Assembly: GCA_002069965.1 (NCBI GenBank)
Contig: MWCI01000031.1
Span: 1 to 36,094 of the forward strand
Reading direction: 5' to 3'
Length of the DNA: 36,094 bases
DNA from: Spirochaetes bacterium ADurb.Bin218
Lineage (GTDB): Bacteria; Spirochaetota; UBA4802; UBA5550
The notes beneath the pieces are model-generated. The model did no database searches, was not told the origin of the DNA, and saw nothing but the letters and a program-made list of their open reading frames with translations. The stretch's first letter is position 1; each line of letters starts with the position of its first letter. Shown one piece after another: positions 775 to 17,404 of the stretch. Made by a program: the position numbers and the translations under genes.

Positions 775-787
775 TTAGGACTGACAA
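759..787 (-). promoter_or_regulatory. Sigma70-type promoter for the substrate-binding protein gene
   Basis: On the minus strand TTGTCA (787-782) is followed after 17 nt by a perfect TATAAT (764-759). The -35 box lies inside the last codons of the upstream merR-like gene, whose stop is at 775-777. This suggests the binding-protein gene is transcribed on its own as well as by any read-through. Confidence 0.6.
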
Positions 788-1263
788 AAAGATCTATAAA
801 CAAGATTTTGCACATCTTCGCAGCTTACAATTTTACGATAAACAGGACAATCTCTACAAGAAGGATAAGGGTCTGCGCACTTCTCTTCAGTTGCCCAGCA
901 AGGTCTGGTCTTTATGTTATAAGCAGGGCATTTGGCTCCATGACTGGTATTGCATTTACGTAACTTAAAACATGGCACAAAGGCGAGCAATCTTCTTATG
1001 CCCTCAAAATTAAGTCCTTCTTCCTGAATCATCTTCTTTATACACTTAACCTTCTCAAGCTCAAGGTCAGAATAAAGCCTGCGGCCAGAGTCAGTTTTGT
1101 AAGGTATAATGAGCCCCTCTGTTTCATAAAGGCGTAAAGTATGAACAGAGACACCTAACTTTGCTGCTGCAACACCTATTGTGTATACAGGCTCATAAAA
1201 ATCCCTTGGATCTCCCTTTATATCTGGCATGTATTCTGATTCTTCTCTCTTTAAATTTTTCAT
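775..1263 (-). CDS. MerR-family (HspR-like) regulator with cysteine-rich C-terminus
   Basis: This is a 162-aa transcription factor. Residues about 27-95 form a MerR-type winged helix domain: YTIGVAAAKLGVSVHTLRLY, then GLIIPYKT, GRRLYSDLELEKVKCIKKM and EEGLNFEGIRRLL. The last parts resemble HspR more than metal-sensing MerR proteins. The rest is not the usual dimerisation helix. It is a short tail with Cys at 98, 104, 112, 122, 129, 136, 139, 148 and 160 (plus Cys74), spacing that suits a metal or Fe-S site or a thiol/persulfide sensor. The gene lies just downstream of the terminator of the sulfur-reductase operon on the same strand, so that operon is a plausible target (inference). GAGG lies about 11 nt before the chosen ATG. 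An in-frame ATG at codon 12 is an alternative. An inverted repeat in its upstream region (1333-1350) may be an autoregulatory site. Confidence 0.82.
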   Translation of the reverse strand: MKNLKREESEYMPDIKGDPRDFYEPVYTIGVAAAKLGVSVHTLRLYETEGLIIPYKTDSGRRLYSDLELEKVKCIKKMIQEEGLNFEGIRRLLAFVPCFKLRKCNTSHGAKCPAYNIKTRPCWATEEKCADPYPSCRDCPVYRKIVSCEDVQNLVYRSFCQS

Positions 1264-1470: not shown

Positions 1471-2649
1471 TTAGAATTTATAAGCAATGCCCATATCCAG
1501 TGCATACTGGCTCATCTTTGACTCACCACCAAAGCTTTTTACCTTTGCCTCTGGTGAATACATATAGCCAAGATCTATGTTAAGCTTATCTGTTAGAGAA
1601 ATTCCCGCACCCACTGTGTAATGCCATTCAGCAACTGCTGGGAAGAACATATTTGCCATCAGGGCATTTTGATTATCTTCACTTAAAGGCATCTTTCCAT
1701 AGTTTACACCTGCTCTAAGTGCGAAGGAAGGCAAAAGCTGATACTGAAGACCAAACTTATAAACTATCTGGTCATCCCATTGCATATCAAAATTTCCACC
1801 AGTAAATTCTGGGAGATCGTTTCCATTAGTCTCTGACCATTTTATCCACTGAACATCAAAGGCTAAAACAAGGCCAGATATAGGTTTTAGACCAAAACCA
1901 AGAGTGGCACTCATAGGCTGATCAAAAGAGAGTTTGTTTTCTGAAACTCCATAATCATTGCCACTGGCATTTGAGGTATACTGGTTGAATTTAAAATCCT
2001 GAAATTTGCTTGTTGTTTCATAGGCAAGCCCAATAGTAAGCATTTCCATAGGCTTTACTGTTATGCCAATGGTTGCTCCATATCCAAAAGAAGAGGCTCC
2101 CATATTTACAACCTCTCCACCTGCCATTGAATTCATCATTGCATATTCCATTGTTGCATACATAATGTTAATTGTAGCACCAACAGATATCATGTCATTA
2201 ACTTTGTAAGATATACCTGGGGCAAACCTCATAAGTGAATAAGAAGTATTAAGAAGCCCCATGGACATTGATTGCATATTGTAATCAACACCCATGCCAG
2301 ATACACCATAAGCTCCAAGGCCAAAGCTTGTTGTGGCATTTAATGGAATAACAAGACCCAATGCTGGGACTGGGGAAGCACCCTTATCTGAGGTAAACTC
2401 ATTCCCCATAACATCAAGCTTTACAGAAGGCTTGAAATAGGATGCTCCGAAATCCACTCTCCCACCAAGAGCCTGAATTCCTGCAGGATTTGTCAATACT
2501 GATGCAGCATCAAGATTCACACCAACGCTTGCACCACCCATGGAATCCTGAGTAGGGCCAAATCCTATCATCCTCATCCCATTTGTTGCAAAGGCACTAC
2601 CTGCCACAAAGAGCACTGAAACAACTGTTAGAAAAATTCTTTTGCCCAT
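1471..2649 (-). CDS. OmpP1/FadL/TodX-type outer-membrane channel
   Basis: The 392-aa product has a clear signal peptide (MGKRIF, hydrophobic core, GSAFA, cleavage before TNGMRMIG). The mature start GMRMIGFGPTQDSMGGASVG and LTNPAGIQALGG near residues 50-60 are typical of FadL, where the NPA region belongs to the plug domain. The rest alternates amphipathic strands and ends in aromatic Phe (GIAYKF), as outer-membrane barrels do. FadL proteins pass hydrophobic molecules by lateral diffusion. The gene has its own AAGGAG site and lies 49 bp after the rhodanese-like gene as the last gene before the terminator, so it is probably in the sulfur operon. I infer, without proof, that its cargo may be elemental sulfur or polysulfide rather than fatty acids. 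A FadL for hydrocarbons that happens to be here is the alternative. Confidence 0.85.
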   Translation of the reverse strand: MGKRIFLTVVSVLFVAGSAFATNGMRMIGFGPTQDSMGGASVGVNLDAASVLTNPAGIQALGGRVDFGASYFKPSVKLDVMGNEFTSDKGASPVPALGLVIPLNATTSFGLGAYGVSGMGVDYNMQSMSMGLLNTSYSLMRFAPGISYKVNDMISVGATINIMYATMEYAMMNSMAGGEVVNMGASSFGYGATIGITVKPMEMLTIGLAYETTSKFQDFKFNQYTSNASGNDYGVSENKLSFDQPMSATLGFGLKPISGLVLAFDVQWIKWSETNGNDLPEFTGGNFDMQWDDQIVYKFGLQYQLLPSFALRAGVNYGKMPLSEDNQNALMANMFFPAVAEWHYTVGAGISLTDKLNIDLGYMYSPEAKVKSFGGESKMSQYALDMGIAYKF

Positions 2650-2698: not shown

Positions 2699-3331
2699 TC
2701 AACCACATCCAGCCAGCTTCTTCTTTTTTGGCTGTACTGCAGGCTTATTGGCAGGAGTTGATTTATTGTCAGAGCCGGCACTTTCTTTGATCTCTCCTGC
2801 AGAACCAAAAAACTTCGCCACAGATAAAGCTGCATTATATTTAAGCACCTCATCATCCTCCATGGCAACAGTCTTTGAGGGATTTAAAATTGTTTCAACC
2901 CATGAGTTGTATCCCCCTTGCAAGACAAGAGCATCAACACCTGCAGATTTGAGGACAAGCCATGCCTGATGTGCGTGGCTGTTTCCATTGGAATATAAAA
3001 CTACAGTCTTTGGAACATTAAACTCAGAGTTAAGTGTCTCCTTTTTAAGAAGTTTCTGGAGAGGAATATTTACTGCATTCTTTATTGCTCCCTTTGAAAA
3101 GTCCTCCTCACTTCTTATATCTATGATCATGAGATCTGATTTCCCTTGAATAATCCACTCTGACAAAGTTGAAGCGGTAATAGCGTCATCACCTGAGGCT
3201 ATTGCTGCAGCAAGATCCTCTGGCTTAAAGGAAAACTTCCTTGTATCACTTCCTGGCAAAAATAACATGATCACAGCAAGAATCATTGCTGTATATGCAG
3301 CCAGAAGTTTACCCGTAATTTTAATCTTCAT
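2699..3331 (-). CDS. Membrane-anchored rhodanese-like protein lacking the catalytic Cys, with a penultimate Cys tail
   Basis: The start is taken at the ATG at 3331 (AGAGG five bases upstream). A GTG at 3337 is possible. The 210-aa product has a positive N-terminus and one hydrophobic helix (about residues 9-26), which places the rest in the periplasm. Residues about 50-148 are a rhodanese fold: DLMIIDIRSEEDFSKGAI, NAVNIP, TVVLYSNGNSHAHQAW, then LQGGYNSW. The active-site loop, normally Y-C-R-x-G-x-R, reads YSNGNSH, so the persulfide Cys is Ser114. The protein has only one Cys, at position 209 of 210, on a Pro/Lys-rich tail (KPAVQPKKKKLAGCG). A terminal Cys on a flexible arm recalls SoxY (GGCGG) and DsrC. 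I infer a periplasmic sulfur-carrier role. It sits between the YeeE halves and the FadL gene. Confidence 0.82.
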   Translation of the reverse strand: MKIKITGKLLAAYTAMILAVIMLFLPGSDTRKFSFKPEDLAAAIASGDDAITASTLSEWIIQGKSDLMIIDIRSEEDFSKGAIKNAVNIPLQKLLKKETLNSEFNVPKTVVLYSNGNSHAHQAWLVLKSAGVDALVLQGGYNSWVETILNPSKTVAMEDDEVLKYNAALSVAKFFGSAGEIKESAGSDNKSTPANKPAVQPKKKKLAGCG

Positions 3332-3352: not shown

Positions 3353-3958
3353 TTAACTCTTAACTATATTCCCATTTTTTTTCTCAATCCACTCTGCACC
3401 AAAAAATCCTGCAAGTGCAATGATCATAATAACAAAGCCCACAACACCTGCTGATACTCCAAAGAATTTTTGCAGAGTCACTGTTCCCATATAACCACTG
3501 TATTTTCCGCCATAAAAAGGTTCAATGAATGGAGCAACCTCACCATAAACAAACATTCCAAGCAATGCACCAAAAATATAGAAGTAAGAATCAACCTTTA
3601 AAGTTGCAAATCCAGTAAAGCTTGTGCCAGGGCAATAACCTCCAATTGCGAAACCAATACCCATGATAAGTCCACCCGCAGCTCCAGACCATAAGTATGT
3701 TTCATTTATAAGTATTGAAGACATATCGATCCATCCAAAGGCATCTATAAAAATAAGACCTGTCATTGCAGTTACTATGGCAGTAAACATTACCTTAAAA
3801 ACTGTGAGGTCTCTAAAGTAAAATTGCCATGCCAGTTTCTTGGAATTTCCAAAGCCAGAACTCTCAAGAACCCATCCAAATCCTATTCCTATTATAAAAG
3901 CAAAAATATAGTTTATACCATTGCTCCAATCATTTAAAACAGCTATAGGTGCAAACAT
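3353..3958 (-). CDS. YeeE/YedE-family sulfur transporter, half-size (C-terminal-type half)
   Basis: This 201-aa integral membrane protein has about five to six hydrophobic segments. It contains the family motif GGYCPGTSFTGFATLKVDSY near residues 107-126, whose Cys corresponds to a conserved Cys in the thiosulfate-conducting YeeE/TsuA pathway. Full-length YeeE proteins (about 330-400 aa) carry two such inverted halves. Here the other half (RGCTSG) is the adjacent upstream gene, 9 bp away. The two products probably pair to form one transporter (inference). A strong AGGAGG site precedes the ATG. It moves thiosulfate or another sulfur compound across the inner membrane if it acts like characterised relatives. 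Confidence 0.87.
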   Translation of the reverse strand: MFAPIAVLNDWSNGINYIFAFIIGIGFGWVLESSGFGNSKKLAWQFYFRDLTVFKVMFTAIVTAMTGLIFIDAFGWIDMSSILINETYLWSGAAGGLIMGIGFAIGGYCPGTSFTGFATLKVDSYFYIFGALLGMFVYGEVAPFIEPFYGGKYSGYMGTVTLQKFFGVSAGVVGFVIMIIALAGFFGAEWIEKKNGNIVKS

Positions 3959-3967
3959 AACTCCTCC

Positions 3968-4480
3968 TTATATCCAAAGTTTCCTTACAAAGTAAGCAAG
4001 GCCATAGGCTCCTGCAAAGATGCAAAGCATTGTAACCCAACTTCCAAGAGCAAGAGTAGCACCACCAGATAAAGCAACGCCACTTGTGCAACCTCTGGCA
4101 AGCCTTGCGCCAAAACCAAACAAAGCTCCACCAATGACAGCATAAATCCATCTCTGCTTATCAGAGATCTGAGGACCGCGATTGGTCTCTTTTTTAATCC
4201 TTCCACCAATAAGCCCGGATAAAAAGGCACCTGCAATAACACCAAGAATTTCAAAAACAAGCCAATCATTGAAAGGATTAATACCTGTAGCACCATAATG
4301 AGCAAGATAAGGATTGCTATCCACATGGCCCTGAGCCAGAAACTTCTCAATTGCTACAACAAACTTCATCATTGCGCCAGAAGCGCCAAGTCCTCTACCA
4401 GATATAATGAAAGACAGAAGAAGGACAAGGCCAAGAAGAACTCCCCCAAGATAAGGTGAAATGTAATTTTTTTTCTCCAT
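3968..4480 (-). CDS. YeeE/YedE-family sulfur transporter, half-size (partner half)
   Basis: This 170-aa membrane protein has about four to five hydrophobic segments. The signature FGFGARLARGCTSG followed by LSGGATLALGSWVTM (residues about 120-150) is the GCTSG half of the YeeE/YedE (Sulf_transp) family. A longer periplasmic or cytoplasmic loop (residues about 45-70, AQGHVDSNPYLAHYG) separates the first two helices. GGAGG lies 6 nt before the ATG. It follows psrC and precedes the GYCPGT half, so the two are likely co-translated subunits. The split form is known in many bacteria, but its substrate is less studied than that of fused TsuA. Confidence 0.87.
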   Translation of the reverse strand: MEKKNYISPYLGGVLLGLVLLLSFIISGRGLGASGAMMKFVVAIEKFLAQGHVDSNPYLAHYGATGINPFNDWLVFEILGVIAGAFLSGLIGGRIKKETNRGPQISDKQRWIYAVIGGALFGFGARLARGCTSGVALSGGATLALGSWVTMLCIFAGAYGLAYFVRKLWI

Positions 4481-4521: not shown

Positions 4522-5514
4522 CTATAACAAAGCTTTTGTAGAAAGCTCTCTTAATATAAAAGCTCCCTCAACAAGGACGATTCTCAGTGCAAGACCACCA
4601 GCTAAAACAAAAAGCGGTTGAAGCTTTTGTGGAACTTCTATGCCTCTTTCTTCAAGCCACTCAAGAATTAGAGGTAAAAGAAGTCCTGTAAAGACAACAA
4701 AGATCCAAAAGATGGGAGCAAGAATATCCCCTTTAAAGAGAATCATAACAGCATCCCTTCTTTGAGCCCCTCCTGTAATCTGACCAATAAAAAACAGAAA
4801 GAGAATAAAAATCTCTGTGAGTATAAGCTTTGAGTCAACAGAAAGGAGGAGCTTTCTTTCTTTGCCACTGGAAAGCAACAGAACAAAGGCAGTGCCTGTT
4901 GATATTCCTGAAACAAGAAACAGTGGCCCAAGTATTGCAGAATTCCACAGAGGTCTTGCATTAAATGCACTAAGCAATATTCCAGTATAAATACCAAGAG
5001 CTATACCAGAGGGAATTGCAATCTTTGCTATAGCATCTCTTTTTTTTATGGAAAAATCCACAAGGAGATCAAAGACTTTTAAAAGCTTTCCATGGACAAG
5101 TGGTTCTAAGTTTTTTCTTATAAACTTATATATTCCCGGATAACCCTCCTGCATAACAGAAAGCAACAGAAGAATGCTTACAGGATAAATAACAAGCAAG
5201 ATCCATGAACCCCATGACATAACAGATGTTACATGGAAAGTCATGTAAAATCTTAATACATTGATCTTATTTGTAAGATCTAAAAATAGAAAAAACATTC
5301 CAAGGCTTAAAAATATTGGAGCCCACAGTATTGCCAATTTAGAAGAAACTGGAAGCTCCTCTTTCTTTTTAAGAAGGGACATAGCACTTAAAATCAAAAT
5401 ACCTGCAGTTAATCCTCCGAGAAACAAATAAAGTGAAACCTCCCAGCCCCATATATGCCATCCATCAGCAAAGGAGGATGTCATCTTTTGAGTTACAAAA
5501 ACACTTTCATTCAT
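4522..5514 (-). CDS. psrC: NrfD/PsrC-type membrane subunit of sulfur-compound reductase
   Basis: This 330-aa protein has eight to ten hydrophobic helices. It begins with the family-typical WHIWGWEVSLYLFLGGLTAG, in which an acidic residue in the first helix and the GGLTAG turn are conserved in NrfD/PsrC proteins. It has no haem-binding His pattern. Such subunits anchor a periplasmic catalytic dimer and exchange electrons with the menaquinone pool. The gene follows psrB after 11 bp and carries an AAGGAG site. The symbol follows operon context (psrA-psrB-psrC). Substrate specificity of the complex (polysulfide, thiosulfate or tetrathionate) cannot be fixed from this subunit. Confidence 0.85.
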   Translation of the reverse strand: MNESVFVTQKMTSSFADGWHIWGWEVSLYLFLGGLTAGILILSAMSLLKKKEELPVSSKLAILWAPIFLSLGMFFLFLDLTNKINVLRFYMTFHVTSVMSWGSWILLVIYPVSILLLLSVMQEGYPGIYKFIRKNLEPLVHGKLLKVFDLLVDFSIKKRDAIAKIAIPSGIALGIYTGILLSAFNARPLWNSAILGPLFLVSGISTGTAFVLLLSSGKERKLLLSVDSKLILTEIFILFLFFIGQITGGAQRRDAVMILFKGDILAPIFWIFVVFTGLLLPLILEWLEERGIEVPQKLQPLFVLAGGLALRIVLVEGAFILRELSTKALL

Positions 5515-5525
5515 AAATATACTCC

Positions 5526-6077
5526 TTAAACAAGATAGTAGACGTTGGGCTGTGTCCCAGCTTCTGGTTGCAACACCTTGAACTTACGACTCTTCAAAAG
5601 CACAGAGACCTCACTGTTGCTGTCATTTAAATCTCCAAAGTGTATAGCCCTTGCAGGGCAAACAGACATACATGCTGGATTTTCTCCCTTTTCTATCCTA
5701 TGAAGACAGAAGGTACACTTGGTGACATAGCCTTCAGGCATAGTAAACCTGGCATCATAAGGGCATGCTGCCATACAGGCCTTGCAGCCTGTGCATTTTT
5801 TACTATCAACAAGCACAAGGTTTTCAGAAGATTTATGATAATGACTTGCTCCAGTGGGGCATGCGCTTACACATGGAGCATTGGTGCAGTGATTACATCT
5901 TTCGGAACGTATTTCCATTGAAAGCTTTGGATATACACCACTGACCTCTTCAACAACCCAGACCCTGCTTCGACCTTCCGGCACCTCATTTTCTGTCTTA
6001 CAGGCAACCACACAGGCACCACAACCAACACAGAGTTTAGTATCAATAACCATTGCATATTTTATTTTATTATCCAT
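5526..6077 (-). CDS. psrB: Four-cluster ferredoxin-like subunit of sulfur-compound reductase
   Basis: This 183-aa protein belongs to the DMSO-reductase type iron-sulfur subunits. Four Cys groups are visible: DTKLCVGCGACVVACK near residue 16, CNHCTNAPCVSACP near 61, CTGCKACMAACPYDAR near 94, and CTFCLHRIEKGENPACMSVCP near 122-140. They would hold four [4Fe-4S] clusters carrying electrons between PsrC and the molybdopterin site in PsrA. There is no signal peptide. The protein is presumably exported together with the Tat-targeted PsrA, as known for this family. It starts 3 bp after the psrA stop, so translation is probably coupled. Confidence 0.9.
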   Translation of the reverse strand: MDNKIKYAMVIDTKLCVGCGACVVACKTENEVPEGRSRVWVVEEVSGVYPKLSMEIRSERCNHCTNAPCVSACPTGASHYHKSSENLVLVDSKKCTGCKACMAACPYDARFTMPEGYVTKCTFCLHRIEKGENPACMSVCPARAIHFGDLNDSNSEVSVLLKSRKFKVLQPEAGTQPNVYYLV

Positions 6078-6080
6078 ATT

Positions 6081-8294
6081 TTACACCCTGAAAGTAACAA
6101 AATTGCCATGCATACCCTGACCTCCCATTATTGGGTCTACCAGTATACGTGTCATAAGTTCCTGATCATCTGCACCTTTACCAAAGGCACGCCTTAAATT
6201 CTTAGCAGTAGAACCAAAGCCATGGACCATATATACAGAATCAGGTCTAATCCTCTCTGTAACTCGGACCTTTACTTTATTGCTAACAACTCCATCCTGA
6301 TTCTCAAGCCTCACATACTGCCCATTTTTTAATCCCCACTCTATGGCAACTATAGGATTAACCCAGACCTCGTTTTCTGGATCAAGCTCCGAAAGAATTG
6401 GGTTGTTAATAGTTCTTGCAAAGGAATGAGAAGCGGATCTCCCATATAGCAGTCTATAGTAGCCACCTTCAGGCTCATCATGCCTTCGATAAACAGGAAC
6501 AGGATCAAAGCCAAAATTTTTCAGTGTCTCAGAATAAAGCTCAATCTTTCCACTATCAGTAGGAAATTTATAGTCTTCATTCTTTCCGATATATAAAGGA
6601 GTAGTCCTCTCAAGATTTTTTACTCCAAGGCGTTTCATCTCATCTAAAGAAGAGCCTATCTTTTTAAGTTTAAAATCCAGATATTCCTCAACATCCTTCC
6701 ATGGAAAATAATCACCAAGACCCATCTTATAAGCAAGCTCTCGGGCTATCCACCATGCAGGCTTTGAGTTGTATCTCGGCTCAAAAACAGGACTACGCAA
6801 AGCGATTTGAGGAGTTCTACCCTGGGAATGTCTTATATCGTCATATCTTTCAAGGTAGGAGGTATCAGGGAGAACAACATCTGCCCAACCTGTTATCTCA
6901 GTTGGTAAAACATCTATAACAACAACAAGACTCAAATTTTGCAAAGCCTTAATTGTATTTTCTCTCTGAGGCATGGATTTCAAAACATTGCAACCATAGA
7001 TGAACCATCCCTCATAAAAAGCACGCTCGGCCTCACCTGTAACTCCATGGACAGTAGCAGCACAGACCCCTGCAGAAATAGCAAGATTTGCCAGCTGGTA
7101 TTTCTGACCAGCCTCAGTATCCTTAAAACTTCTTTTGGGTTTTGGATAAGCAGGTATTGGCCACTCCGGTAACTCAGCGCTTTCTGGGATAAAAAAGCCT
7201 CCCTTTCTTCCCCAGCTTCCAAGCAGAGCATTTAAAATAGCACCTGCCCTTACCCTCTGAGTATCATCTCCATACCATACATTATGACGACCAGGATGAA
7301 TGAGAGTTGAGGGCTTATGCTTTGCCATTTCTCTTGCTGTTTCTCTTATAACATCAGGAGAGATAGTAGTAATAGGATATGCCCATTCTGGCGTATTATC
7401 CTTAACAGCCTTTTTCAACTCCTCAAAGCCCTTGGTGTATCTACGAACATAATCCTTATCATAAAGCTCTTCGTAGATAATGACATTAATCCATGCAAGC
7501 AGCAATGCAAGATCAGTCCCAGGCTTTATCGGAAGCCAGTATTTAGCTTTACTTGCAGCAATAGAAAATCGCGGATCTACAACAATTAAAGAAGCGCCAT
7601 TGCGCAGAGCCTGGGCAAATTCATTAACCTGCTGGCTATGAGTATTCTCGCCAATGTGAGAACCTATAAGCACAATACACTTACTGTTTTTCATGTCAGT
7701 GCGCTCTGGAGATTCAATTGCCTCACCATAGGTATTCATGTAGGCCTCCTCACGAGGGCCTCTGCAATTTGCATAAGATGGTGCAACAAAATCAGTAGTC
7801 CCATAAGCCTTAAGCAAAGTCTTAAACCAGCTTCCGCCAGAGCCATGACTGAACATAGCAACACTTTCGGGACCATAGGTTTCCTTAATCTCCTTCAACT
7901 TATCAGCGATATAAGTCAAAGCCTCATCCCATGTTGCCTCCCTGAAAACCTGCTTACCTCTCTCACTGGTTCGTATCAAGGGGGTTTTTAACCTGTCAGG
8001 ATCATTATATATCCCAAATCCAGAGGTTCCCTTTGTGCACAATCTTCCATAACAATGCTCATCTAATTCATTACCTACGATCTTCCATGGCTTACCATTT
8101 TTTGTATAAGCCCATCCTGCACACTGGAATGTGCACATCTCACAAAAGGTAGGCACCCTTGTTATAACATCATCGCCAGAATCTCCTTTGATAAGACCAT
8201 AGGCGACCTTCCCCACACCCCCAGCTACAGCAGCGCCGCCAATGCCAGCGCCTGTAATTTTTATAAATTCCCTTCGATTGACCTTTAAAGCCAT
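6081..8294 (-). CDS. psrA: Molybdopterin-dependent polysulfide/thiosulfate reductase catalytic subunit
   Basis: This 737-aa catalytic subunit begins with a twin-arginine signal (NRREFIKITGAGIGG, residues 6-20), so it acts in the periplasm. Cys51, Cys54, Cys58 and Cys86 match the CxxC-x3-C-x27-C site for the FS0 [4Fe-4S] cluster. Cys177 (in SYANCRGPREEAY) is the likely Mo or W ligand. The bis-MGD family blocks follow, including GSHIGENTHSQQ and WADVVLPDTSYLERYDD. The C-terminal cofactor-binding domain follows, with YRLLYGRSASHSFART. Length and order fit PsrA/PhsA. Arsenate or tetrathionate reductases are relatives, but the two YeeE halves and the rhodanese-like gene in the same operon favour polysulfide or thiosulfate. 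First gene of the operon, with AGAGG 6 nt before the ATG and a large inverted repeat about 50 bp upstream. Confidence 0.88.
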   Translation of the reverse strand: MALKVNRREFIKITGAGIGGAAVAGGVGKVAYGLIKGDSGDDVITRVPTFCEMCTFQCAGWAYTKNGKPWKIVGNELDEHCYGRLCTKGTSGFGIYNDPDRLKTPLIRTSERGKQVFREATWDEALTYIADKLKEIKETYGPESVAMFSHGSGGSWFKTLLKAYGTTDFVAPSYANCRGPREEAYMNTYGEAIESPERTDMKNSKCIVLIGSHIGENTHSQQVNEFAQALRNGASLIVVDPRFSIAASKAKYWLPIKPGTDLALLLAWINVIIYEELYDKDYVRRYTKGFEELKKAVKDNTPEWAYPITTISPDVIRETAREMAKHKPSTLIHPGRHNVWYGDDTQRVRAGAILNALLGSWGRKGGFFIPESAELPEWPIPAYPKPKRSFKDTEAGQKYQLANLAISAGVCAATVHGVTGEAERAFYEGWFIYGCNVLKSMPQRENTIKALQNLSLVVVIDVLPTEITGWADVVLPDTSYLERYDDIRHSQGRTPQIALRSPVFEPRYNSKPAWWIARELAYKMGLGDYFPWKDVEEYLDFKLKKIGSSLDEMKRLGVKNLERTTPLYIGKNEDYKFPTDSGKIELYSETLKNFGFDPVPVYRRHDEPEGGYYRLLYGRSASHSFARTINNPILSELDPENEVWVNPIVAIEWGLKNGQYVRLENQDGVVSNKVKVRVTERIRPDSVYMVHGFGSTAKNLRRAFGKGADDQELMTRILVDPIMGGQGMHGNFVTFRV

Positions 8295-12176: not shown

Positions 12177-13153
12177 CAAACCCCTGAAAAAGTCAGGAAG
12201 CCAGTATTTCATTAAAAATATGCAGTTTAAAAGGTAAAAAATATCACTTATATAACAAGGACAAAAGAAGCTTTAATCGCTTCTCTAAATTCATGACCAG
12301 TATAATGAGGCTAATTGATGTCTCATTGGTCTCTTTCAACTTCATCATTATCCTGCCTAATCCATATCGTCTCTTCCCAGTGCCAAAACTTCCTTCAATG
12401 GCATTCCTCTGCGCTCTGTCAGCTTGTTCTTGTTTATCTGAATAGGAATTATCGTTTACCGGACGGCCTAACCGAGGTCCAGATAGACGTATATTGTGCT
12501 CTTTGCAAAATCGTAAGTTTTCACCTGTCCTGTATATTTTATCCGCTAATACCGCCTCAGGATAGTATCCCATACGTTGCTTATATCGCTTTATTTGTTC
12601 TATCAGGAGTGTCGATTCATTGATATTATCCCATGAAATTGCATCAAGAATATGATATCCATTGATGCGCGAAAGAAATATCTTTGCCCCAAATTCAACC
12701 AATGCCTGTGCTTTCCCTCGAACAATTGGTCGTACATGGGGCTGGCTTATATTTACAATGCGGTCTGCTATAGAATTCTTATTCTCATCATACATCTGTT
12801 TTTGTTGTCGATACACTTCCCCAACAACCAAAAGATTCCTGTATTGCTGACGAGTCAACCCTTCAAGTACTGCTCCTCTCTGTATCAGTGCTTCAATATG
12901 ATGAATATCCCTCCGAATATACTGTAATTGCTGCCTCAAAGCCTTCCGTAACCCCTTTTGTGTGTGTTTCCGACGTTTTATAGCCCTGAAGATAATCCTT
13001 TCAAACTCTAACTGTTCTTTATTCTTTGCCTTATACATGGGTTACCTCGTGCAAGAATTTTGCGACATAATTACCATTTTCCTTGCACTTTTTCAAGCTG
13101 TTTTAGCTTTAAACATTTGAAAATTCAATACTTTTCACTTTTTCAGTAAGGCC
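12177..13153 (-). mobile_element. IS5-like element, copy 1 (internally deleted, left end degenerate)
   Basis: Aligning to copy 2 base by base gives a 977-bp element, exactly 633 bp shorter than copy 2 because of one internal deletion. The right end keeps the inverted repeat (minus strand GGCCTTACTGAAAAAGTGA from 13153) next to a TA at 13154-13155. The left end keeps CTGAAAAAGTCAGGAAGCC, but the outer seven bases (CAAACCC) do not match the expected terminus. The element is therefore probably unable to move by itself. Confidence 0.88.
12244..13038 (-). pseudogene. IS5-family transposase, in-frame internal deletion (copy 1)
   Basis: The open frame of 264 codons starts like the full transposase (MYKAKNKEQLEF). 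After three or four altered residues (ERIIF) it jumps to the RAIKRRKHTQKG segment, which in copy 2 lies after residue 220. Relative to copy 2, 211 codons are lost, including the DUF772-type N-terminal domain and the first catalytic Asp (VDAS). The second Asp (VLADKIYRTG) and the Glu (RNAIEGSFGTGKRRYGLGRI) remain. The frame has survived because the deleted length is a multiple of three. It ends 17 codons earlier than copy 2 (TGA where copy 2 has CGA). A functional DDE enzyme is not possible. A DNA-binding fragment is conceivable but unsupported. Confidence 0.88.
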
Positions 13154-13411: not shown

Positions 13412-14185
13412 CTATTTGAATCTCGAAAAATACTCATCAATCTCCGACCTCAATTCTATTCCTACTCTTTCAAAACAATTCAGCAGTTCTAAATAAGTCC
13501 CTTTACCACCAAGAAAGTCCCAAAATTCCTCAGCAACCTTTAATTCATTATCTAAATCAAGCATCCCCTTTAATGTCCATCTTTCATAAGGCTTTGGTTC
13601 GTAAGGATTGTATGGAATAGCTATATATGAGTTAACTTTAGCATCTGGATGTTTAAATAAATAAATTGCTACCCATTCTAACAATGTTCTTTTAAAATCT
13701 TTGAAATTACTAATATTAGGCTTAGCTGTCTTCAAATCAAATAGATGAATACTTTCATCATTACCTTTAACAAACAAATCTACTTTAACTGTCTTTAATT
13801 TATTAATTTTACCTTTGATACATACTTTTCTTATTCTTTCAATTTCATTTATTTTATCTGGATTACCACCTATTGTTAATTCGTTCATAATATGCTGGAT
13901 TTCATTTTGTGCTTGTTCGCTTATTTCATCACCCACCACAAATTGCTTTTGAGCAAAAGGGAATTCCAAACTTGCCAGTGTTTCAGCCACTGGTTCAAAA
14001 ATGGAAGTGCCAAAGGTCGTATTTAAAGAGTGGATAAAAGAAAACAATGCCATTCTATCTTTACCAAGTAAACGATAATGAAATGGCATGTTATTTGTTT
14101 CAGGCTTATATGTTAAAAACTTATTCCTTAGACTTTCTCTGATTGTGTTTTCAATCTTTTCTATTTGTTTTTTTGTAAGTGGCAT
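13412..14185 (-). CDS. TdeIII-family type II restriction endonuclease
   Basis: The 257-aa product resembles the TdeIII (Treponema denticola) endonuclease family. Its N-terminal third contains RNKFLTYKPETNNMPFHYRL and LLGKDRMALFSFIHSLNTTF, which I recognise as family-typical. A PD-(D/E)xK-like core is visible around residues 130-160: VDLFVKGNDESIHLFDLKTAKPN, with Asp before the hydrophobic strand and the D-L-K triad end. TdeIII itself is reported to cut GGNCC. Specificity here is inferred from family only. The gene starts 6 bp after the methyltransferase stop on the same strand, the usual M-then-R order. Its base composition is more AT-rich than the genes beyond the IS copies, consistent with acquisition. 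Confidence 0.78.
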   Translation of the reverse strand: MPLTKKQIEKIENTIRESLRNKFLTYKPETNNMPFHYRLLGKDRMALFSFIHSLNTTFGTSIFEPVAETLASLEFPFAQKQFVVGDEISEQAQNEIQHIMNELTIGGNPDKINEIERIRKVCIKGKINKLKTVKVDLFVKGNDESIHLFDLKTAKPNISNFKDFKRTLLEWVAIYLFKHPDAKVNSYIAIPYNPYEPKPYERWTLKGMLDLDNELKVAEEFWDFLGGKGTYLELLNCFERVGIELRSEIDEYFSRFK

Positions 14186-14191
14186 TTTATT

Positions 14192-15796
14192 TTATTTTTC
14201 CTTCAAATGAAATATTATTTCAGCATAAGGAGTATCTCTATCTTTTTCTACTCTATTAAGTACAGGTCTTTTGAATTGGTTGACAATTTTCATTCCAGCC
14301 AATTCTGCAATTTTAGGATAAAGATTATATTTGTCATTTGCAACTAAAAACACATCATAATTGTTCTGAAGATATTTTTTGCAATTTAAAAGAACTTTGG
14401 CTATTCCTTTTGCATAAGAATTTCTTTGCTCTTCTCCCTGACCTTTATATAAAGGACCTATTTCTAACTCATCTCTTCGCTCAAATCCAAATATTTCATA
14501 AGCATAAGCATGCTGTTCATGATAATCAATGAGCCCAACATAAGGTGGGCTTGAAAATATTCCTCTTATTTTTTCCCTTAATAATATTTCTGCAAAATCT
14601 CTGTTTTTCCTTTTAACTTCTTCATAAATATCTATTGTTCTCGAATCTCCGGTTATACAGAGTTGAAAAGTATTTGTTCTTATTTTCTCAAATTGCTTAA
14701 GTCGATTTAGTGTATCTTTAGTGTAAAATTCCCACCATTTTGTAATAGAAAATATCGGCTTACAAATTTTACCATGCTTTTTGCAATAATATGTAGTAGT
14801 CACAGGTTCTTTTAGGGTAGCTAAATCAGCATGTGTTGTTGCCCTGCAAGAGCGAACTGTTCGACTTAATATAATTGATAACACATTCCTTACATCTGTA
14901 TCTTCAATTAATTCTATTTCTTTAGCTAAAAAATCTATTTCTTTCCTTACTGGTTCTAAAAACCATCTATCCAAAAAAGTTTCATCTTTATCTTGTTTTA
15001 CTTTTATTTGATATTTTTGAATCAGGTCGTCATAAATAGGGATAAACTCTCTTTCTTTCTCTTTAGAGTATTCATACTCATTGATTACTCTTTTGGCAAC
15101 TTTCCTTTTATATTCTGGCGATGGAAAATACTTATTGTTAAATTTTGCCAGTTCTACAAGTAAATGTTTTTCAAAAATAGCATTATTTGGAATCCTCTGA
15201 AATTCCTTTAATTTATAGGTCAATGTACGAATTGTATCTGCAATTGCAATTAAATTATGACTATCGACTTTTACATTTGAAATCAAAGTATTAAAGAAAG
15301 AAATATCTATTCCAATGGCATGCATCCCTAATTCATTTGCCTGAACTAATGTTGTCCCACTTCCACAAAAAGGGTCTAATACTATATCGCCTTGATGAAA
15401 ATAGACCTCCTTTTTAAACTCATCTGTATGGAAATCAAGGAAATACTCTACTAATTGAGGAATAAACTTGCCTTTATAAGGATGCAATCTATGAACATGT
15501 TTTGTTCTTTCTGACTCATTATATTGTATAAATGAGAGATGCCAATTAATATCACCCCCTAATTTTTTCCTCCATTTGTTTTCTTGGGATAAAGAATCAT
15601 AATAATCTTTCAATTCCTCTATATTTACTAGTGGATTCCCGTTATTTCCGTATTTATTAATCCTACCATATTGTATTAAATATGAAATATTTGAAATAGT
15701 AACCTTGCGATTTAGATATTGAGAAGCCCATATGCATGCTTCTTTTAAGCTAAGCAATTTTTTATCTTCGTCTTTAAATAATGTAAGTTGGCTCAT
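14192..15796 (-). CDS. DNA methyltransferase (SPPY type, probable N4-cytosine) with N-terminal DNA-binding-like domain
   Basis: This is a 534-aa modification enzyme. The SAM-binding motif DPFCGSGTT is at residues 141-149, preceded by a motif X-like RLHPYKGKFIPQL (103-115) and followed by GMHAIGIDIS. The catalytic SPPY is at 416-419, typical of N4-cytosine methyltransferases. The 265-residue gap between them would hold target recognition, an order resembling the alpha class. Residues about 15-65 (LSLKEACIWASQYLNRKVTI, YLIQYGRINKYG, NIEELKDYY) look like an excisionase/MerR-type winged helix, an extra domain that may bind DNA or regulate the operon. It protects the site cut by the TdeIII-like enzyme encoded next. 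AAAGGA precedes the ATG by about 11 nt. Confidence 0.85.
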   Translation of the reverse strand: MSQLTLFKDEDKKLLSLKEACIWASQYLNRKVTISNISYLIQYGRINKYGNNGNPLVNIEELKDYYDSLSQENKWRKKLGGDINWHLSFIQYNESERTKHVHRLHPYKGKFIPQLVEYFLDFHTDEFKKEVYFHQGDIVLDPFCGSGTTLVQANELGMHAIGIDISFFNTLISNVKVDSHNLIAIADTIRTLTYKLKEFQRIPNNAIFEKHLLVELAKFNNKYFPSPEYKRKVAKRVINEYEYSKEKEREFIPIYDDLIQKYQIKVKQDKDETFLDRWFLEPVRKEIDFLAKEIELIEDTDVRNVLSIILSRTVRSCRATTHADLATLKEPVTTTYYCKKHGKICKPIFSITKWWEFYTKDTLNRLKQFEKIRTNTFQLCITGDSRTIDIYEEVKRKNRDFAEILLREKIRGIFSSPPYVGLIDYHEQHAYAYEIFGFERRDELEIGPLYKGQGEEQRNSYAKGIAKVLLNCKKYLQNNYDVFLVANDKYNLYPKIAELAGMKIVNQFKRPVLNRVEKDRDTPYAEIIFHLKEK

Positions 15797-15910: not shown

Positions 15911-15935
15911 GGCTTCCTGAAAAAGTCAGGAAGCC
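15911..15935 (-). terminator. Perfect hairpin at the left end of IS copy 2
   Basis: GGCTTCCTGA (15911-15920) and TCAGGAAGCC (15926-15935) form a 10-bp stem with a 5-nt loop. It overlaps both the terminal inverted repeat and the transposase stop codon (TGA, 15928-15926). It may insulate the element from outside transcription. In copy 1 the outer arm is partly lost. Confidence 0.5.
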
Positions 15936-17404
15936 AGCATTTCCTTAAAAATATGCAGTTTAAAAGGTAAAAAATATCGCTTATATAATAAGAACAAAAG
16001 AAGCTTTAATTGCTTCTCTAAATTCATGACCAGTATAATGAGGCTAATTGATGTCTCATTGGTCTCTTTCAACTTCATCATTATCCTGCCTAATCCATAT
16101 CGTCTCTTCCCAGTGCCAAAACTTCCTTCAATGGCATTCCTCTGCGCTCTGTCAGCTTGTTCTTGTTTATCTGAATAGGAATTATCGTTTACCGGACGGC
16201 CTAACCGAGGTCCAGATAGACGTATATTGTGCTCTTTGCAAAATCGTAAGTTTTCACCTGTCCTGTATATTTTATCCGCTAATACCGCCTCAGGATAGTA
16301 TCCCATACGTTGCTTATATCGCTTTATTTGTTCTATCAGGAGTGTCGATTCATTGATATTATCCCATGAAATTGCATCAAGAATATGATATCCATTGATG
16401 CGCGAAAGAAATATCTTTGCCCCAAATTCAACCAATGCCTGTGCTTTCCCTCGAACAATTGGTCGTACATGGGGCTGGCTTATATTTACAATGCGGTCTG
16501 CTATAGAATTCTTATTCTCATCATACATCTGTTTTTGTTGTCGATACACTTCCCCAACAACCAAAAGATTCCTGTATTGCTGACGAGTCAACCCTTCAAG
16601 TACTGCTCCTCTCTGTATCAGTGCTTCAATATGATGAATATCCCTCCGAATATACTGTAATTGCTGCCTCAAAGCCTTCCGTAACCCCTTTTGTGTGTGT
16701 TTCCGACGTTTTATAGCCCTCAGATAATCCCGTCGTGCATTGTGCCTATATGTCCGTGGTTTGGGAATTCTTCCTTTCAACTGCTCATACAGTTTATCAA
16801 TAATCTCCTCACATTTTTCCCGACTCTCATTCAGTACATTAAGATCGGTAGGATAGGTTATGTCTGCAGGTGCTACACTGGCATCTACTATCATAATCCC
16901 TGCGTTATCTTCCCCGCTCTCTGCTTTGGGTGTCCTGTCATCTGATGAACAGAAACTATCGCCATTACCCTTATCATTCTTATTATTCTTATCCCGCTTA
17001 CTCAGCGTTCCATTGACAATGATATCATTGATCTTTGATAAAACTTCTTGCGATAAGCGTTTCCTGTAATGAACCATCATCGATGCATCAAACGGCGCTT
17101 TATCGGTATACTCATTAAGCCCAATAAAATATTGTAGATAGGGATTCTCCCGTATCTGCTCAACTGTTTCTTCGTCGGTAATATTCAATTTCTCCTTGAT
17201 GATGAGTGAATCTAATGCCATGCGAAAGGTCTTGGCTGGCGCTCCCATATCTTTACTGAATAAACACGCATAGTGCGTTTCAAGCTCTTCCCAGGGTATT
17301 ATCTTAGCAAGACGTATCCAGCGATTATCACTCCGAAGCTTACCGCCAAAAGGGATATAAAAGTTTTAAAATTCTAACTGTTCTTTATTCTTTGCTTTAT
17401 ACAT
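15926..17404 (-). pseudogene. IS5-family transposase with nonsense codon 13 (copy 2)
   Basis: From the ATG at 17404 the frame has 493 codons including the final stop. Codon 13 is TAA (17368-17366), where GAA would be expected from copy 1 and from the following NFYIPFGGKLRSDNRWIRLA. An internal ATG at 17248 opens a 440-aa product that lacks 52 residues. The rest is complete: ENPYLQYFIGLNEYTDKAPF (DUF772-type), catalytic Asp in MIVDASVAPADITYP, second Asp in VLADKIYRTGENLRF, and Glu in RNAIEGSFGTGKRRYGLGRI. The last 17 codons (RYFLPFKLHIFKEMLAS) run into the terminal hairpin. Whether the internal start yields an active enzyme is unknown, so I mark it as broken. Confidence 0.85.

Follow-up and report, generated by a model that had tools for sequence, protein, structure and literature searches.

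What function is left to a rhodanese-like protein that has lost the Cys of its active-site loop and keeps a single Cys at the very end of its chain? The question is raised by a 36,094-nucleotide stretch of Spirochaetes bacterium ADurb.Bin218 (contig MWCI01000031.1; the whole stretch is hereafter called the window), where such a protein is encoded in an operon that reads, along transcription, PsrA, PsrB, NrfD, YeeE1, YeeE2, rhodanese, a FadL-type protein and a MerR-type regulator. We consider that the window protein is probably, though far from certainly, a SoxY-like periplasmic sulfur-carrier arm that exchanges sulfur with a Cys relay in YeeE1 and YeeE2, the inactive rhodanese serving as a docking module.

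Fold, active-site loop and location

Translation from the ATG start codon at 3331 yields a rhodanese-like protein of 210 amino acids (2699–3331, minus strand), in which Pfam Rhodanese (PF00581) is matched at residues 53–146 with 61.9 bits (cut-off 22.2). An AlphaFold2 model based on 25 aligned sequences contains a confident rhodanese core at residues 41–170, with block means of about 87–96 in the predicted local distance difference test (pLDDT), as well as an N-terminal helix at residues 7–24, and the Foldseek matches of this model are rhodanese domains. The loop Cys of the CX4-5R/T motif of catalytic rhodaneses is absent from the window protein: the active-site loop reads VVLYSNGNSH, and alignments with active rhodaneses and with relatives place Ser114 at the catalytic Cys position of a dead loop, YSNGNSH (residues 113–119; 2975–2995, minus strand). 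The only Cys of the protein is residue 209, within ...AVQPKKKKLAGCG, and its codon lies at 2705–2707 (minus strand). It stands near the end of a Pro/Lys-rich C-terminal arm (residues 177–210; 2702–2803, minus strand) that finishes with KKKKLAGCG and is disordered as judged from the model and from a comparison of tails, residues 181–197 falling below 50 pLDDT with no confident structure. The first-pass annotation had described a loop YSNGNSH without its catalytic Cys and a sole, penultimate Cys behind a Pro/Lys-rich linker, and both descriptions proved accurate.

The N-terminal helix is predicted to be a membrane anchor (3260–3313, minus strand), oriented N-in/C-out by charge. A periplasmic location, which had also been proposed at first pass, is predicted by topology from this signal anchor, from an additional transmembrane segment that separates the two parts in several relatives fused to YeeE2, and from a relative at locus L049 that is a lipoprotein. 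N-terminal charge exceeds the charge behind the transmembrane segment in 18/25 relatives; in view of this distribution, the added segment of the fusions and the lipoprotein member, a cytoplasmic location was judged unlikely.

Conservation of the terminal cysteine

The closest orthologues (the window protein and five others, 44–59% identity) have both the terminal Cys and the loop YSNG[NDS]SH in 6/6. When GTDB contigs were scanned with the window protein alone, no relatives appeared; a six-sequence alignment as query did find them, and 26 true relatives were obtained from the GTDB contig search, in records of Spirochaetae, KSB1, Ignavibacteria, Bacteroidetes, Verrucomicrobia, Acidobacteria, Gemmatimonadetes, Eisenbacteria, Myxococcales, Gammaproteobacteria and Lambdaproteobacteria. 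The gene order psrA-psrB-nrfD-yeeE1-yeeE2-rhd is kept in nearly all of the GTDB relatives with enough flanking DNA, so that the tie of the protein to PsrABC and YeeE, first claimed from the window, holds in many phyla.

Because patterns based on the rhodanese could bias the loop residue (one of them contains LYSN), the survey was repeated with a YeeE2 profile, which is blind to the rhodanese. This gave 20 matches in 297 genomes of a phylum, centred on an acidobacterium, 12 in 387 genomes of the window's own phylum, and 80 in 197 genomes of a class, centred on an ignavibacterium; 20 loci of the ignavibacterial class were picked by hand from the match list, their tails being unseen at selection. 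Scoring across all loci covered 102 rhodanese-like proteins, each distinct and complete and either fused to YeeE2 or encoded next to it, with the loop residue taken from the hidden Markov model column, an assignment that is approximate in the most degenerate octaheme-type domains. A Cys is present within the last four residues of 98/102 proteins (ends EGC, GGC, GCG, GGCG and GGCGG), and the loop Cys is missing from 98/102 and present in 4/102, the loop residue of relatives being mostly Ser, Ala or Gly and also Thr. The 70 proteins reached through YeeE2 alone include 66 with the terminal Cys and 4 with the loop Cys. The departures from the pattern are L140 and L141 (both Cys), L102 and L103 (loop Cys only), and L107 and L136 (neither); L136 has a frameshift, with PKKKKREGC at the end of the next frame, and L107 adjoins a protein ending KKRKSVGC. 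The first-pass annotation had suggested scoring the C-terminal Cys against the loop Cys beside YeeE/psr genes, and had argued that loss of the one with retention of the other is not readily produced by drift. With 98/102 against 4/102, loss with retention is, by these comparisons, a conserved family trait and not drift, and the exchange of loop Cys for tail Cys, next to a sulfur transporter and to enzymes of sulfur respiration, was found in ten bacterial phyla or more.

The tail beyond the rhodanese domain has a median length of 46 residues (33–74) and is rich in K, A, G and P, with conservation of the basic run and the final Gly-Cys and of almost nothing else. Among 676 open reading frames (ORFs) of at least 150 amino acids in the long loci, 54 end in GC plus 0–2 residues; 53 of them are a module rhodanese, YeeE-rhodanese, multi-sulfurtransferase or PsrA, and the remaining one is a spurious antisense ORF. 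A chance origin of the Cys ends was rejected on this count of flanking ORFs and on the confinement of GC tails to the module. A rough comparison set of other rhodanese domains from the retrieved DNA turned out to include family members and was disregarded. That the window protein is an ordinary degenerate rhodanese with an incidental terminal Cys is hardly credible: rhodanese domains without the loop Cys are indeed common (PMC10135228), but a terminal Cys is kept in 98/102 proteins despite a hardly conserved linker, against about 1% of unrelated ORFs. Behind the dead loop, the PsrABC-type proteins have a nearly invariant helix (QAW), which fits a binding face.

The cysteine relay of the split YeeE transporter

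YeeE2 (3353–3958, minus strand) and YeeE1 (3968–4480, minus strand) both match PF04143 and are half-length Sulf_transp proteins with one conserved Cys each, corresponding to the split halves PmpB and PmpA, respectively (PMC11582611). YeeE1, the PmpA-like C-half of YeeE/TsuA, aligns with the C-half of TsuA around Cys293, with Cys131 as the aligned residue. YeeE2, the PmpB-like N-half, has an invariant Cys109 in GGYCPGT, and its correspondence to TsuA Cys91 is based on the literature (PMC11582611) and on the position in the profile, not on a residue alignment. Among the aligned sequences covering the position, the Cys is kept in 104/104 for YeeE1 and in 107/107 for YeeE2. TsuA relays thiosulfate from Cys293 to Cys91 and Cys22 and passes it on, at the cytoplasmic side, to the YeeD Cys (PMC11073785).

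A YeeE2 gene of genome G006 (L026, 6388–6990) has an in-frame TGA (6709–6711) at the invariant relay Cys, in the context GGY-TGA-PGT. SelB is encoded in this genome, and the TGA looks like a selenocysteine (Sec) codon; the GUxSG motif of YeeE selenoproteins (PMC13188914) represents a different site.

Enzymes beside the module

In the window, the neighbouring enzyme is a predicted reductase of the PsrABC/PhsABC type, composed of a PsrA-like molybdopterin subunit (6081–8294, minus strand; Tat-type leader NRREFIK), a PsrB 4Fe-4S subunit (5526–6077, minus strand) and an NrfD/PsrC membrane subunit (4522–5514, minus strand). The first was assigned by profiles and the structure database (top PDB match 2vpw_A from T. 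thermophilus, E 6.6e-213) and the others by profiles and conserved gene order, so that the Mo catalytic, 4Fe-4S and NrfD subunits are all present together with PsrA homology.

Other loci have other enzymes. Four of the five spirochaete loci read encode an octaheme cytochrome and a multiheme cytochrome b, followed by YeeE1 and by a fusion of YeeE2 and rhodanese with the end GGCG; at the fifth, L068, the contig stops within the multiheme gene. The octaheme cytochrome belongs to the tetrathionate reductase family (TIGR04315, 545.7 bits, cut-off 375), and this arrangement is also found in many ignavibacterial and some acidobacterial loci. At L161, the module is preceded by a tandem sulfurtransferase whose loop, YCHIGQQ, is intact. 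By predicted gene content, the constant parts are YeeE1, YeeE2 and the Cys arm, and the periplasmic enzyme is the part that varies. The genome of the window itself contains a second copy of the module (L066, 8036–13652, G000:C52), which is of the octaheme type and has a YeeE2-rhodanese fusion ending SGGCG. A multiheme cytochrome with 11 CxxCH motifs adjoins a terminal-Cys rhodanese at L071 (4985–6679 and 6787–7446, both minus strand) and at L162 (4871–6781, minus strand), and the L071 rhodanese, from a spirochaete, has an internal CPVCH.

This variety bears on two alternatives. One is that the module acts on selenium or on a different chalcogen oxyanion, like the operon of the respiratory selenite reductase (Srr), which we regard as improbable. 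SrrA falls within the PsrA/PhsA clade (PMC10100899), the srr operon holds rhodanese genes, with two rhodanese-domain proteins accompanying SrrABC (PMC12481199, PMC8528874), and YeeE-family models include selenium-related members; the module, however, is also tied to tetrathionate-reductase-family cytochromes and to sulfurtransferases. The srrA-F operon resembles that of the window in combining a PsrA-clade enzyme with rhodanese-domain proteins (PMC12481199) and, by its description, differs in that no YeeE pair is described and the rhodanese proteins are of other size. Still less probable is a role of the arm in supplying sulfur for the molybdenum cofactor of PsrA or for Fe-S maturation and not for respiration. 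PsrA is a molybdoenzyme, and rhodanese-like proteins serve cofactor sulfuration in other systems; nevertheless, the rhodanese is predicted to be periplasmic, whereas a PsrA with a Tat leader should fold and receive its cofactor before leaving the cytoplasm, and there is no molybdoenzyme in the octaheme-type operons within the stretches read.

Shift of the arm to PsrA

As a case against a carrier, the first-pass annotation had named homologues in the same operon context that keep the loop Cys and lack the terminal Cys. Such homologues do exist, and there the arm has shifted to PsrA and is not lost. L151 and L152 encode an ordinary rhodanese with the loop Cys and without the tail Cys, and PsrA in these operons has the C-terminus GGGQEEEEGGC or SQEEEEEGGC. 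A class-wide search found two further genomes with an arm on PsrA (L191; L192/L193), bringing the total to four, and in all four the rhodanese has the loop Cys and no tail Cys while PsrA ends EEEEGGC (L151, 8638–10956, minus strand; L152, 3258–5579, minus strand; L191, 4532–6847, plus strand; L192, 2419–4734, minus strand). In other operons, 0/25 PsrA proteins end in Cys. The arm on PsrA in these genomes supports an exchangeable arm, and it also indicates that the rhodanese fold is not required as its carrier. On the sequence comparisons, the tail Cys is strongly selected and able to move between proteins. L153/L105 was set aside as an outgroup; this PmpAB-like locus combines TusA- and DsrE-type genes with a rhodanese whose loop is active.

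An arm found on either PsrA or the rhodanese is also what would be expected of a link between the two, and the terminal Cys might be a structural or regulatory tether, whose mixed disulfide with a partner such as PsrA or YeeE keeps the membrane complex assembled or senses the redox state, with no substrate sulfur involved. A flexible arm with a terminal Cys would suit a tether equally well, and an inactive fold suggests binding (PMC10135228). We nevertheless think a tether unlikely, since the arm is retained in octaheme-type and sulfurtransferase-type operons without PsrA, and the partner present throughout is YeeE, with conserved Cys that correspond to in-channel relay residues in TsuA.

Comparison with known systems

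SoxY is a periplasmic protein that holds sulfur intermediates on the Cys of a C-terminal Gly-Gly-Cys-Gly-Gly arm. The window protein ends AGCG and its relatives EGC, GGC or GGCG, and the relative at L100 ends SGGCGG, so the resemblance of this end to that of SoxY, noted from the window, is closer in some relatives (GGCG) and in one of them extends to GGCGG. No SoxY or SoxZ domain was matched in the window protein by Pfam or NCBIfam at E<=0.001, and a rhodanese fold, a membrane anchor and linkage to a reductase instead of Sox set it apart. By analogy, it may work like SoxY while standing outside the SoxY family by every profile tested. DsrC/TusE proteins likewise have a penultimate Cys on a flexible C-terminal arm, a feature common to the window protein; DsrC is cytoplasmic, and the two differ in location and fold, the DsrC profiles of Pfam and NCBIfam giving no match to the window protein. 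PspE and Wolinella Sud are periplasmic single-domain rhodaneses, and Sud serves polysulfide respiration. They share the fold and the periplasmic location but use the loop Cys, whereas here the loop has Ser, Ala, Gly or Thr and the sole Cys is terminal. The system of YeeE/TsuA and YeeD/TusA is similar in having a Cys relay with a small Cys-bearing partner, sometimes fused to the transporter (PMC11073785); in contrast, YeeD acts on the cytoplasmic side, while the partner in the window is predicted to be periplasmic and the transporter is split, with one conserved Cys per half.

The operon itself is already known. In the accessible part of its description, the psrABC-DUF395-rhodanese operon of Ca. 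Thermonerobacter has the same gene set, including MerR, and was read as evidence of sulfur metabolism (PMC6338057); homologues of psrABC are likewise recorded for Melioribacter roseus and Ignavibacterium album in the corresponding parts of two sources (PMC6338057, PMC3534657). That part of the Ca. Thermonerobacter description terms the last gene a rhodanese-related sulfurtransferase and leaves the dead loop and the tail Cys unmentioned (PMC6338057). The literature searched, which includes few subscription papers, yielded no reference to the loss of the loop Cys, to the tail Cys or to the PsrA arm. The recurrence of the Cys swap across phyla suggests an unrecognised family of sulfur-carrying arms.

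A sulfur-carrying arm and its weighing

The SoxY-like reading proposed at the outset starts from direct observations, namely the fold, the dead loop, the conserved terminal Cys, the operon linkage, the conservation of Cys in both YeeE halves and the arm's swap onto PsrA. It would imply that the carrying residue has been displaced from the rhodanese active-site loop to the terminal Cys of a flexible arm, some 35–75 residues long. The inactive rhodanese, anchored in the inner membrane beside the split YeeE or fused to it, would serve docking, in line with the general view of inactive rhodanese domains as interaction modules (PMC10135228). The arm Cys would take up, in persulfide or S-thiosulfonate form, thiosulfate or sulfane sulfur that an adjacent periplasmic enzyme produces or uses up, and would exchange it with the relay at YeeE1 Cys131 and YeeE2 Cys109. 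In the window this enzyme would be PsrABC; at other loci it would be an octaheme cytochrome or a tandem sulfurtransferase of the active kind. Periplasmic SoxYZ has been proposed as a donor to the YeeE-like SoxT (PMC11582611). Import appears more likely than export.

Several points weigh against this reading. The sulfur chemistry on Cys209, the docking and the direction of transfer are what we infer from the sequences. As the genomes with the swap show, the system is able to run on an active rhodanese and a PsrA arm, which uncouples the role of the fold from that of the arm, and the rhodaneses of L140 and L141, possibly intermediates, bear loop and terminal Cys alike. No cytoplasmic sulfur acceptor is present in the window operon, one TusA being encoded elsewhere in the genome. 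Finally, the sequences are interrelated and mostly derive from metagenome-assembled genomes, so 98/102 does not represent 98 independent events. Of the novel sulfur carrier claimed at first pass, the dead fold, the conserved Cys arm and the operon tie stand, whereas the rhodanese fold as a necessary bearer of the arm does not, given the PsrA swap. A wider formulation, to which we give an even chance, is that the Gly-Cys arm is a portable sulfur carrier on varied periplasmic scaffolds (inactive rhodanese, YeeE-rhodanese fusion, multi-sulfurtransferase and PsrA) that loads the Cys/Sec relay of the split YeeE.

Other features of the window

The last two genes of the operon were assigned by profiles and by comparison with the loci of relatives. 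The first encodes a FadL/OmpP1-type outer-membrane protein (1471–2649, minus strand), possibly a channel for hydrophobic sulfur, and genes of this type adjoin the module of both reductase types (L031, L033, L037, L041, L156, L157, L160, L170, L171, L181 and L184). The second encodes a MerR-family regulator (775–1263, minus strand), MerR/HspR-like and with many Cys in its C-terminal half; MerR/HspR-like relatives precede PsrABC-type and octaheme-type operons alike. Farther along the window, a transposase-like gene is present in two copies (12244–13038 and 15926–17248, both minus strand) that are nearly identical across their shared part and flank a DNA methyltransferase-like gene (14192–15796) and an ORF (13412–14185), which together look like an inserted island.

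Implications

A conserved carrier arm beside a transporter and a reductase would bear, through one testable residue, on two open questions, namely what holds and carries sulfane sulfur in the periplasm while sulfur is respired, and what supplies YeeE-type transporters. As the catalytic Cys is gone, the annotation "sulfurtransferase" would need correcting. The relocation of the arm to PsrA represents an unusually clear transfer of a functional residue between proteins of one operon. If true, the portable arm would represent a general means of covalent substrate channelling in anaerobic sulfur respiration, a counterpart of SoxYZ in sulfur oxidation.
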